The translations under genes and the position numbers were made by a program. Below are positions 30,056 to 58,757 of a stretch of DNA of 64,000 nt, piece after piece; positions within the stretch are counted from its first letter, which is position 1, and each line of letters opens with the position of its first letter. This DNA comes from Kovacikia minuta CCNUW1 (lineage in GTDB: Bacteria; Cyanobacteriota; Cyanobacteriia; Leptolyngbyales; Leptolyngbyaceae). The stretch covers positions 3,534,001-3,598,000 of the forward strand of contig NZ_CP083582.1 in assembly GCF_020091585.1 (NCBI RefSeq), written 5' to 3'. The notes beneath the pieces are model-generated. The model saw only the letters and a list, made by a program, of their open reading frames with translations, made no database searches and was not told the origin of the DNA.

Positions 30056-30493
30056 TTAGTCATCTCTAGTAGCTTCATCGGGTGGATGCCACCCAGCAGA
30101 TATCCAAGCTTGCCTGACCGTCACAGCATAAGGGTTGTTTAACTGTAGAGCCAGAACAGTAGCACGACCAGTGGCAGTTAATCCTGAAATGTAGGCACCA
30201 TTTTCTGCCCAAGCAAAATGGCGTATCCATCTTTGCTCACGAGGGTTAAATAATCTAACATTACGATTCGTTACTGGATCTTTAGCGTGGGTTTGCACAC
30301 CCTTATAAGAGTTACACAAGCGACAGGCAAGCCACAAATTTTCTTCCTCATCAGATCCACCTGCTGCTTTGGGGATGATGTGTTCGACCTCTAGAACTCC
30401 CAAAACATACTTCTGAAAACTACGGCAATAACCACACTGATTGTTTGCCTCTGCCCGCACTCTCATTCGAACTTCTTCAGATACTTGACCCAC
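30056..30493 (-). CDS. HNH endonuclease of cassette A
   Basis: A 145-aa HNH nuclease. Zinc-type Cys pairs: NQCGYCRSF and ACRLCNSYKG; HNH core: LEVEHIIPKAAGGSDEEENLWLAC. Then LFNPREQRWIRHFAW and GLTATGRATVLALQLNNP, a motif shared with the HNH gene at 57718-58131. GTG 30493 starts inside the end of the upstream gene (17-nt overlap), so translation is coupled. The partner is an antitoxin-like protein. HNH nucleases in small pairs like this are often presumed selfish or defensive, but I know no tested function. Confidence 0.82.
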   Translation of the reverse strand: MGQVSEEVRMRVRAEANNQCGYCRSFQKYVLGVLEVEHIIPKAAGGSDEEENLWLACRLCNSYKGVQTHAKDPVTNRNVRLFNPREQRWIRHFAWAENGAYISGLTATGRATVLALQLNNPYAVTVRQAWISAGWHPPDEATRDD

Positions 30494-30878
30494 TGCTCAT
30501 TGGTTCCATTAACTTACGCTTCACAGCCTCAGAGAGAGCAGTCGCTTTGCGTAAAAGTCCTTCTTGGTAAACTTGCATGAGGGCTTGCAATTCTAAGCGC
30601 TCATCTTCAATCAAAGAACCTGCCTGCTGGCGATCGAGCAGTTCACTTAATCGAGCATCTTGGTCTGGCTCCATTTGAAATTCTGTCAGAGCTAAAACTT
30701 GTTCATTAGAAAGATCAGAGATCGGTTCGAGATCGAGAATATCTGCCCTTATCGGTGGAATGGAAAGTTGAATTGTATCCACCAAAACACTGGCAATATC
30801 TCGATTTGCTAATCGTGCAAAACGCTCAGCACGTTGATAAATCTCGTCTGGCAAAGTAATTGTGATTTGGGTACTCAT
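30477..30878 (-). CDS. Small partner of HNH cassette A, RHH-like N-terminus
   Basis: A 133-aa protein. The N-terminus (MSTQITITLPDEIYQRAERFARLANRDIASVLVDTIQL) has the look of a ribbon-helix-helix/CopG DNA-binding arm. The C-terminal half (RLSELLDRQQAGSLIEDERLELQALMQVYQEGLLRKATAL) resembles the whole C-terminal part of the 69-aa partner in cassette B (LQLLLDRQDEGDTLSQTEQQEAEGL). It overlaps the HNH gene by 17 nt. An antitoxin or autoregulator role is an inference. Confidence 0.7.
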   Translation of the reverse strand: MSTQITITLPDEIYQRAERFARLANRDIASVLVDTIQLSIPPIRADILDLEPISDLSNEQVLALTEFQMEPDQDARLSELLDRQQAGSLIEDERLELQALMQVYQEGLLRKATALSEAVKRKLMEPMSSGSSI

Positions 30879-30893
30879 AGTTATATTCCCATG

Positions 30894-31346
30894 CTATTTG
30901 CGTGGATTTGGTTGTTTTCTCATGTTATTTTTTGCAGAGTTGTCAGTAGCTTCAGCAGTTTCAACAAGGTTCTGTTCATCAACTATTTGGGCTTTCCGAT
31001 CTACAGCAGGCTCACTCGTAGAAAGAGCAGCCCACTCAGTACCAAAATCGGGATATTTCAACTCATTCTGTTTAACTGTAAAGAAAGGTGAATAACGGCA
31101 AAAATCACTTCTTTCGATTTTTCTGCCAGTGATTGATTTCTCAATAGCACTTAATAGATGAGATTTGCCAGATTCGTTAGCACCAACAACAGTTGTAATT
31201 TGGTTTTCAATCGGAACCTCAATGTATGGGTAAAAAGCCTCATCGATCTTCTCCCAAGGCTTGGGTTTTACCCGATCGTCGCTTTTTCTTAAGAAGTCGT
31301 CGTTGAAAGACTTGTAGAACCGGATAAAGACTGTCTTAAGATGCAT
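30894..31346 (-). pseudogene. AAA-family ATPase, N-terminal fragment only
   Basis: A 150-aa frame starting with an SMC/RecF-like ATPase N-terminus: LKTVFIRFYKSFNDDF, then Walker A VVGANESGKSHLLSAIE and DFCRYSPFFTVKQNELKYPDFGTEW. In relatives this is only the first fifth of a 500-650-aa protein with signature, Walker B and H-loop far downstream; here it ends with a polar, low-complexity tail (NLVETAEATDNSAKNNMRKQPNPRK) and a stop. No other frame continues it. It is likely a truncation by deletion; the following gene is the antitoxin-like gene of cassette A. Confidence 0.7.
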
Positions 31347-56758: not shown

Positions 56759-56989
56759 TCACTGAAGATACTTCTCCACCCGTCGCTCTTCTAACATGAC
56801 GGCTACTTCTTCATCGGTTGGGGCAGGCTGGTCTGTTTTTAATAAGCCCCTCATCCGTTGAATTGCACCAGAGCGATCAGGTTGGGCAACAGTTGTATCT
56901 TGCAGGGATTCAACGATGGCAGAGATCAGTGCAAGGCGATCGCTGGGTGGCAACTTGAAGATTTGTGCTTTTAGTTCTTGCAACAACAT
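56759..56989 (-). CDS. Orphan type II antitoxin, 76 aa
   Basis: QELKAQIFKLPPSDRLALISAIVESLQDT, then the tail MRGLLKTDQPAPTDEEVAVMLEERRVEKYLQ, which precedes VapC toxins in cyanobacteria. GGGAG lies seven bases upstream of the ATG. Its TGA overlaps a GTG that opens IDTNIIL in another frame (GTGA), the expected toxin start, but the toxin is cut off after a few residues. So only the antitoxin of this pair remains intact. Confidence 0.75.
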   Translation of the reverse strand: MLLQELKAQIFKLPPSDRLALISAIVESLQDTTVAQPDRSGAIQRMRGLLKTDQPAPTDEEVAVMLEERRVEKYLQ

Positions 56990-57294: not shown

Positions 57295-57507
57295 ATTTTT
57301 TGATCACCTACGAAGGTTAATGGTGTGTTCAACGTTACACCTAATGAGTAAGCATCCATAGTTCCGGGATCAGCCAGCACTGCTACGGACTATACTCTCT
57401 TCTTAAGAAATTAAACAGCAACATTATAGGTTGGGCCCAGGGCTTTAAGATGTTATTTGTGCCTTGCGTCTACAACGAACACAGCGCTCAGATAAGCTAA
57501 TCGCCCT

Positions 57508-57717
57508 ATGTCCGAAATTATTGAGATTCCAATCGAACTAGCCCAATTCCAGCTTCCTCAAGCAGTTCAAGCACGCTTGCAACTTCTGTTAGATCGTCAA
57601 GATGAGGGTGATACGCTATCTCAAACAGAACAACAGGAAGCAGAAGGGCTGGTTGAACTGGCAGAATTTTTATCTCTACTGCGTTTGCGCTCAACACGAG
57701 TAACAAAGCAGGCATAA
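57508..57717 (+). CDS. Small partner of HNH cassette B, 69 aa
   Basis: MSEIIEIPIELAQFQLPQAVQARLQLLLDRQDEGDTLSQTEQQEAEGLVELAEFLSLLRLR. A short strand, then LLLDRQ and an acidic helix, matching the C-terminal half of the cassette A partner. Its stop is directly followed by the ATG of the HNH gene (TAA-ATG at 57715-57720), so both are surely one transcription unit. Antitoxin/regulator role inferred from arrangement only. Confidence 0.7.
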   Translation: MSEIIEIPIELAQFQLPQAVQARLQLLLDRQDEGDTLSQTEQQEAEGLVELAEFLSLLRLRSTRVTKQA

Positions 57718-58131
57718 ATGACAGCGATTCCAGCTTCTCTACGCCGATTAGTCATTCAAAGAGCTGATAACCGTTGTGAATATTGTGGCGTATCGCAAAT
57801 TGGTCAGGTGGCTACCTTCCATATTGACCACATTGTTCCTGTCGTAGCAGGTGGCGAAACGGCTGCGGCAAATTTGGCGCTTGCCTGTGTTTCCTGCTCA
57901 CTTCGCAAGGGCGCACGGCAGGCTCTTGAGGACTTGGAGACGGGTGAAGTTGTCTTCATCTTTAATCCTCGTCAACAGGTCTGGAAAGAACACTTTCGTT
58001 GGAACGATGTACACGTTGTCGGGTTGACCGCTACAGGTCGAGCAACGGTGCGAGCACTGGATTTGAATCGACCCATGCTGTTAGCAATTCGGGCAGAAGA
58101 GGCATTGCTGGGTCGTCATCCGCCGCCATAA
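57718..58131 (+). CDS. HNH endonuclease of cassette B
   Basis: A 137-aa HNH nuclease: NRCEYCGVSQ and ACVSCSLRKG Cys pairs, HIDHIVPVVAGGETAAANLALAC core, FNPRQQVWKEHFRW, and GLTATGRATVRALDLNRP. It is clearly homologous with the cassette A protein (30056-30493): both share the spaced motif C-x2-C, DHI/EHI, GG, NL-x-LAC, FNPR-x-Q-x-W-x2-HF, GLTATGRATV. The active sites look complete. Confidence 0.83.
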   Translation: MTAIPASLRRLVIQRADNRCEYCGVSQIGQVATFHIDHIVPVVAGGETAAANLALACVSCSLRKGARQALEDLETGEVVFIFNPRQQVWKEHFRWNDVHVVGLTATGRATVRALDLNRPMLLAIRAEEALLGRHPPP

Positions 58132-58253
58132 ACCTGCCTTTGTGAGTGTTCCTCGATCGGTTTGGGAATCCTGATGACTATGCCTTGAAACCATCTCCCC
58201 CCGATGGGCAACATTCTGATTTACCCATTCACTCATTCAATCAGGAGCATCCC

Positions 58254-58757
58254 ATGCCGTATCAAAACATTAGTGCCACCCTTTCCGAGCAAGAGATTGA
58301 GCAGGTCAAAGCGGCGTTTGCCACGATTCAAGAAAAGCTGCCCTTTCTAGTCAATTTAACGACTGAGGAACGGCGTAGGCTGCTTAAAATGGGCGATAAA
58401 AGCCTTGCGTTTGTTAGTAATAGCCTGACGATCGCGCAGGCGAACCCGGATGTGTTGCCTGCCAGCTTTGATGTAGCAGAATTTGCGCGGGATTATCGGT
58501 TAATGACGGTTCTGACTGAGTTTTTGTTTAGCCTGCGGCAGTTGACTGAACAGGTGGATGACACGCTGATGGCAGTCAGCAGTGAAGCGATGAGCAGTAG
58601 CCTGGGCGTGTATGACTATATCAAGATGGCGGCAAAGACTCGACCGGGGTTGAAAAGCTCGGCGGAGCAGTTGGGGGAGCGGTTTAAGGCGATCAAAGGA
58701 CGACCGTCAAAGGGGGCGACGAGTCATTCGGCAGAGGCACGGGTGGAAGTGGGTTGA
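58254..58757 (+). CDS. Conserved hypothetical protein, 167 aa
   Basis: Begins MPYQNISATLSEQEIEQVKAAFATIQEKLPFLVNLTTEERRRLLKMGDKSLAFVSNSL. Helical throughout (FDVAEFARDYRLMTVLTEFLFSLRQLTEQVDDTLMAVSSEAMSSSLGVYDYIKMAAKTRPGLK) with a polar, low-complexity tail. Similar proteins are widespread hypotheticals in cyanobacteria and planctomycetes. AGGAG lies seven bases before ATG 58254; the frame is open upstream to 58146 without support. The second 21-nt repeat array starts about 80 bp past its stop. Confidence 0.7.
   Translation: MPYQNISATLSEQEIEQVKAAFATIQEKLPFLVNLTTEERRRLLKMGDKSLAFVSNSLTIAQANPDVLPASFDVAEFARDYRLMTVLTEFLFSLRQLTEQVDDTLMAVSSEAMSSSLGVYDYIKMAAKTRPGLKSSAEQLGERFKAIKGRPSKGATSHSAEARVEVG

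Follow-up and report, generated by a model that had tools for sequence, protein, structure and literature searches.

An HNH gene and its small helical-hairpin partner recur together in several bacterial phyla and look, from their sequences, most like an unrecognised toxin-antitoxin-type module

The window analysed here is a stretch of 64,000 nucleotides from Kovacikia minuta CCNUW1 (NZ_CP083582.1, positions 3,534,001 to 3,598,000 of the forward strand), and it carries two small cassettes, A and B, each with a gene for an HNH-type protein next to a smaller partner gene. In cassette B the two genes lie on the same strand and in the same frame with zero gap, and the coordinates of the ORF list bear out the direct contact of the partner stop and the HNH start (TAA-ATG) described in the first-pass annotation. 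The features referred to below are the following, in window positions:

57508-57717, plus strand: partner gene B, 69 aa, stop TAA at 57715-57717; candidate antitoxin without a DNA-binding arm
57559-57603, plus strand: helix 1 of the partner B hairpin, aa 18-32 including LLDRQ (AlphaFold2 block pLDDT ~92; profile match to partner A)
57622-57711, plus strand: helix 2 of the partner B hairpin, aa 39-68 (AlphaFold2; residues 66-69 with pLDDT <50)
57718-58131, plus strand: HNH nuclease gene B, 137 aa, ATG at 57718; candidate toxin, PtuB-like
57826-57831, plus strand: catalytic-type D37-H38 of HNH B (HNH alignment; motif counts)
57871-57873, plus strand: N52 of the HNH motif, invariant in the HNH alignment
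57886-57900, plus strand: C57-x2-C60-S61 of HNH B, second zinc-type knuckle, with S61 as the third HNH-motif position
30056-30493, minus strand: HNH nuclease gene A, its start overlapping partner A by 17 bases
30477-30878, minus strand: partner gene A, 133 aa, with an RHH-like arm (aa ~1-44) and the hairpin (aa ~68-120)

The motifs that had been reported as common to the two HNH proteins are indeed present in both, with C20-x2-C23, D37-H38-I, NLALAC, FNPRQQVW and GLTATGRATV in HNH B and C-x2-C, EHI, NLWLAC, FNPREQRW and GLTATGRATV in HNH A, and the two proteins match with an E-value of 4.4e-27 and 43% identity. As single sequences the partners match weakly (E 0.134); as profiles (hhalign) they align over residues 11-62 of B and 64-114 of A with a probability of 92.6 and E 4.5e-7. 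The aligned part is the helical hairpin that carries LLDRQDEG in partner B and LLDRQQAG in partner A, and it is the sole part that the two have in common, as had been claimed. The first-pass annotation had also named a lack of relationship between the partners in profile searches as the outcome that would count against it; the searches found them to be related, and its proposal is therefore not refuted on its own terms.

A search of the 8.56-Mb, three-contig genome with HNH B returned ten HNH places, six of which are close paralogues. All six have a small same-strand ORF directly upstream, with start-stop gaps of -26 to +2, and no partner of this type was found at the four places that belong to other HNH families (L007-L010). 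The earlier description of a repeated pair was right in that cassettes A and B are paralogous, and its frame of two cassettes was too small, as the genome holds six. A solo RHH-class partner with no HNH gene is also present in this genome (L253, C1:4895722-4898078).

A scan of 57300-58260 found no sigma-70-like promoter site, and the two weak terminator-like sites that it returned lie inside the cassette B genes, where shuffled sequences give an expected mean of 0.9. About 500 bases from cassette B there is a 76-aa ORF (56759-56989, minus strand) with a weak match to PF09720 'Unstab_antitox', a putative addiction module component (17.3 bits, below the cut-off of 23.3). Just upstream of cassette A lies a 150-aa P-loop fragment (30894-31346, minus strand) with weak matches to AriA, GajA, Old and PtuA, which resembles the beginning of an OLD-type ATPase that has been truncated; no ORF like it recurs among the neighbours of the pairs examined.

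The pairing was surveyed in a set of 216 loci made up of the six from this genome, 30 and 100 from a phylum search (292 genomes, the 130 loci being taken among the matches listed), and 80 named-genome loci that are the best 80 of at least 538 relatives. These hold 218 HNH genes, 215 of them distinct (the set includes repeats), and an LLDRQ-type partner gene found by iterated phmmer lies just upstream of 213 (210 of the 215 distinct genes), so that these loci hold no fewer than 210 distinct HNH-partner pairs, or about 150 non-redundant ones. With phmmer at E<1e-5, every one of the 213 partners falls into a single linked family. The five exceptions comprise three HNH genes at sequence ends (L204, L096 and L091), one whose start is gone and which has a transposase-like stretch directly upstream (L159), and one that is a real, intact solo gene (L194). 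Counted to the closest start, the gaps of the 213 pairs peak at -4 (61 pairs), 0 (22) and +2 (19), and the arrangement is that of type II toxin-antitoxin loci, with two small genes, the antitoxin-type one first, that usually overlap or touch. The region downstream of the HNH gene served as a control and gave partner matches in 4 of 211 cases, three of which are adjacent second cassettes, and a comparison of same-strand ORFs of at least 110 aa near the pair found no other neighbour family in more than 4 loci. Three long HNH ORFs that had been candidates for natural fusions (L075, L100 and L103) are due to over-extension of the start site.

The 80 named loci hold 81 HNH genes, of which 79 are paired with the partner and the other two lie at contig ends. 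The paired genes belong to Cyanobacteriota (34), Planctomycetota (15), Verrucomicrobiota (7), Chloroflexota (6), Acidobacteriota (5), Myxococcota (4) and Armatimonadota (2), with 6 unassigned, so that seven named phyla carry the pair. In the phylum search the HNH protein was found at E<=1e-15 in 69 of the 292 genomes, with up to 11 copies per genome among the matches listed. The second HNH gene of L125 (minus strand) and L035 represent a more distant sister branch, whose partner is of the type '...LTEILHFLAKLPSPQEVLNLRL + hairpin' and which stands in tandem with an 80-aa-class pair; the HNH-partner family extends beyond the genes counted in this survey.

Relatives also occur in 33 PLSDB plasmid records, of which the 30 listed are cyanobacterial by name. 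The four plasmid records that were opened have a gene annotated 'hypothetical protein' upstream of the HNH gene, and among them one pair lies directly before parA/parB and two lie beside integrases; a tblastn search of plasmids with partner B gave no match. Matches in phage records were partial (seven records, at most 67% of the query), and among 29 loci on viral contigs L277 alone matched over most of the protein's length.

The partners fall into six main classes with 73, 55, 43, 13, 13 and 11 members, plus five singletons, with partner B in the first, short class and partner A in the third. In profile comparisons the B class matches the A class (E 4.5e-7), the 80-aa class (E 3.3e-10) and, weakly, the RelB/Phd-like class (E 1e-4, probability 57), and the A class joins both the RelB/Phd-like class (E 2.3e-9) and the fifth arm class (E 7e-10). 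Across the classes the N-terminal arm is RHH-type, RelB/Phd-like, of another kind or absent, and the hairpin stays. The view of the LLDRQ segment as a module shared by the partners is thus well supported, and the further suggestion that it may interact with the HNH protein is plausible. The partners are also the more acidic members, with a pI below that of the HNH protein in 177 of 188 pairs.

Since the TAA between the two genes is in frame, partner B and HNH B could be folded as one fused chain, for which AlphaFold2 gives a disordered start followed by the hairpin (aa 18-32 and 39-68, block pLDDT ~92) and a pTM of 0.65, in a single-chain model whose output comes without contacts. Partner A is modelled as a beta/coil-helix-helix arm followed by the hairpin at 71-86 and 91-120 (pLDDT 81.6, pTM 0.50). 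Its residues 1-44 resemble Arc, CopG and RHH antitoxin folds (Z 5.4-6.1) and its residues 68-120 the YnzC fold (Z 6.9, 27% identity over 52 residues), modest Z values that are not to be trusted alone; the structural alignments of both partner A and HNH B covered Foldseek's own candidates only. By sequence, 3 of 27 A-class members match the FitA-like RHH family (PF22513), once above the cut-off, and 11 of 13 fourth-class members have a RelB-like match at E<=0.01, with L002 below the cut-off. Partner A has no Pfam match, and partner B was assigned to no family by Pfam, NCBIfam (above cut-off), PADLOC or PHROGs. On the strength of the model, the arm of partner A looks RHH-like. For the hairpin core, the RHH-class partner profile finds YnzC first by sequence in the PDB (E 0.0053, below usual significance), a second, independent partner profile matches it at E 0.092, and NCBIfam DUF896 is matched at E 0.03-0.1. 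A remote kinship with UPF0291/YnzC (DUF896), itself a helical hairpin, is possible from these matches and the models, at a level below usual significance and for a shape, the two-helix hairpin, that matches easily.

HNH B belongs to the HNH family PF01844 (42.7 bits, cut-off 21.4). It has the D37-H38 and N52 of the motif, with Ser61 in place of the usual Asn or His at the third position. A pattern search recovered the DH and N in 162 of 190 genes, the other 28 falling outside the pattern; at the third position 60 of 61 B-class genes have Ser, and 102 genes from the other classes have Asn. The closest known relative is PtuB, the HNH protein of Septu and of the type I-A retrons (Ec78/Eco7, Ec83), to which the likeness extends over the whole length in both sequence and fold. 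HNH B matches the PADLOC PtuB model at E 1.2e-11 over aa 10-127, four PADLOC PtuB models match all six paralogues of the genome, and the six best PDB matches of HNH B are PtuB chains from Septu and retron complexes, with Z 9.3-10.3 over 124-130 residues and retron-Eco7 PtuB at Z 10.3. The next fold matches are Cas9 HNH domains, with ~62 residues aligned; Foldseek alone gave HNH B no match below E 0.001. The cassette proteins are shorter (137-154 aa) than the listed PtuB chains (205-234 residues), and their partner, a hairpin protein of 69-133 aa, is unlike the PtuA ATPase of Septu. Filing the pair under Septu was considered, since its HNH protein matches PtuB, and was rejected because the PtuA ATPase gene that adjoins PtuB in Septu does not recur near the pair: among the same-strand ORFs of at least 110 aa compared there, no recurrent family is an ATPase partner, and no PtuA gene was found among the ORFs beside cassette B.

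The two genes are lost unequally. Among the 213 pairs the HNH gene is intact in 194, broken in 18 (ten with both HNH pieces visible, eight as truncated matches) and at an edge in 1. No frame breaks were found in the 213 partners, and a truncation check, in which 16 flagged partners were judged by eye, revealed a partner stop beside an intact HNH gene at L132 and L158 and damage to both genes at L150. A broken HNH gene with a partner is therefore seen at 18 loci and the reverse at 2. With a partner of ~96 aa and an HNH protein of ~143 aa, the binomial chance of two or fewer partner lesions out of 20 is ~0.004, for loci that are non-independent and that include some broken HNH genes from drafts or MAGs, which may be sequencing errors.

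Partners are also found by themselves. Of 52 places with an RHH-class partner at E<=1e-30, 33 have an HNH gene (25 checked directly, 8 by coordinates), 5 a broken one and 13 none, with 1 at an edge; L260, one of the 13, has a shortened partner. The 15 places with a B-class partner divide into six with an intact HNH gene, two with a broken one, three with none by profile, and four where the partner is damaged or partial and at most an HNH remnant is left. At L315, one of the three, both HNH ends are kept around a deletion. L320 has a B-class partner 2.7 kb upstream of a complete pair (L308). The few close pairs of solo partners, L260 among them, give dN/dS values of 0.13-0.75, which are weak evidence because they rest on few changes. 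For the cassettes as a whole, 38 close pairs, a few of which repeat genes (L006/L013; L050/L048 and L165/L160), give a median dN/dS of 0.14 for the partner and 0.13 for the HNH gene, and both genes are under purifying selection. This pattern of loss is what a toxin and its antitoxin would leave, without being proof of it. A tree of the HNH proteins with 149 rows needs 10 changes of partner class, which is the minimum (shuffled mean 85.6), and this indicates that the pairs diversified together; tight linkage of adjacent genes alone would give the same matched trees.

On balance we favour, with some reserve, the reading of cassette B as a copy of a mobile module of two genes with type II toxin-antitoxin-like character, in which the hairpin is the constant part. 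This reading draws on the operon-like order, the near-obligate pairing and its controls, the hairpin that is kept while the arms vary, the likeness in fold to PtuB, the lower pI of the partners, the asymmetry of loss, the selection on both genes and the plasmid copies. The second gene would encode a small PtuB-related nuclease of the HNH (His-Me finger) kind that acts as the toxin, perhaps on tRNA or on DNA, and the first a small acidic helical-hairpin protein that would bind and restrain this nuclease. In some classes an N-terminal arm of antitoxin DNA-binding type (RHH, RelB/Phd-like) would add autoregulation. From this reading we infer nuclease activity and toxicity for the one protein and neutralisation by the hairpin for the other, and since the arm is absent in cassette B, partner B would be expected to neutralise HNH B without an RHH operator-binding arm. 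The module resembles type II systems of the FitA/VapB, RelB and Phd/YefM types in its small two-gene operon with the regulator-type gene first, its acidic partner, the antitoxin-type arms of some classes, its orphan partners and its plasmid copies, and differs from them in having a PtuB-like HNH protein as the candidate toxin and a partner core that belongs to no named family. Type II antitoxins combine a DNA-binding domain with a toxin-binding region, and the RHH-like arm of the A class, which would correspond to the former, is missing in B.

Several observations speak against a toxin-antitoxin system, namely the solo HNH gene L194, the intact HNH genes beside stop-containing partners (L132, L158) and the fused-chain model, which docks the two proteins without confidence (pTM 0.65). 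By analogy, the related PtuB of retron-Eco7 also weighs against it, as this protein is stated in the relevant passages of PMC11555353 to be non-toxic alone and to need PtuA. The partner could for this reason instead be a subunit that the nuclease needs for its activation or targeting, much as PtuB needs PtuA; the pair would then be a small defence nuclease and no toxin-antitoxin system, with a hairpin that would dock the HNH protein and an arm that, if present, would guide it to DNA. This is the main rival, which we regard as rather unlikely. The PtuB likeness of the HNH protein fits it, as does the requirement for both PtuA and PtuB in the growth arrest by retron-Eco7 (same passages), and an HNH protein that is of no use by itself would likewise hardly ever be found alone. 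An idle partner, however, should decay, and partners persist without an HNH gene at 13 of 52 strong RHH places and 3 of 15 B-partner places, with low solo dN/dS values (0.13-0.75) from a few close pairs that involve few changes. The exchange of antitoxin-type arms is moreover something more usual in antitoxins.

HNH domains are common in homing endonucleases, and the several copies per genome (up to 11, among the matches listed) and the integrases beside plasmid copies would suit a homing-type or other selfish nuclease whose partner is a mere transcriptional regulator or hitch-hiker. We consider this improbable, as the armless B-class partner is retained under purifying selection, no flanking gene or target site recurs, and the best fold match over the whole chain is PtuB and no homing nuclease. 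Wide spread over phyla and purifying selection would equally be seen for a bacterial housekeeping pair in nucleic-acid repair or processing, unrelated to conflict, which is less probable still given the patchy occurrence of the HNH protein (69 of 292 phylum genomes at E<=1e-15), its frequent decay and the plasmid copies.

Two described systems come close to the module in different ways. In the NetFlax pair D29-D51, as given in part of PMC10440598, D51 has an HNH nuclease domain as in PtuB and belongs to a toxin-antitoxin-type network, and its cognate D29 is a PtuA-like AAA ATPase, unlike the hairpin partner of the cassettes. The mycobacterial ArsR protein MSMEG_6762 and its HNH nuclease (PMC9416677) likewise tie an HNH protein to cell death and a DNA-binding regulator, in a likeness by description only; there the ArsR protein regulates HNH expression, and the MSMEG_6762-6760 pair, according to the portion of that report concerned with it, did not behave as the predicted toxin and antitoxin. 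The term 'HNH' is absent from the main text of Makarova 2009 (PMC2701414) and from that of Kopfmann 2016, and a description of the HNH-hairpin pair was not found in the open-licence literature searched. For Septu EcB88, the H and N residues of PtuB are reported to be required for defence, and cleavage of tRNA-Tyr is reported in the same study.

A broader and more tentative possibility, to which we give limited credence, is that the cassettes form an unnamed toxin-antitoxin superfamily, present in seven or more phyla, whose PtuB-like HNH nuclease, standing alone, would be restrained by one conserved two-helix hairpin that evolution has joined to three or more kinds of arm, or to none. On this view the nuclease of Septu and the type I-A retrons would share this origin and be under another restraint (an ATPase, or a reverse transcriptase with msDNA), and tRNA may be what the cassette nuclease cuts, as it is for PtuAB of Septu and retron-Eco7.

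Found repeatedly across several bacterial phyla, the pair, judged by its sequences, looks most like an unrecognised toxin-antitoxin-type module. If this is right, hundreds of genes annotated as 'HNH endonuclease' and 'hypothetical protein' would make up a single family of toxin-antitoxin type, whose nuclease fold is not listed for two-gene toxin-antitoxin modules in the open-licence literature searched, and toxin-antitoxin pairs would be linked to the effector of Septu and retrons. The armless partner B would be a minimal neutraliser of 69 aa, in which toxin-binding is separable from the DNA-binding part.
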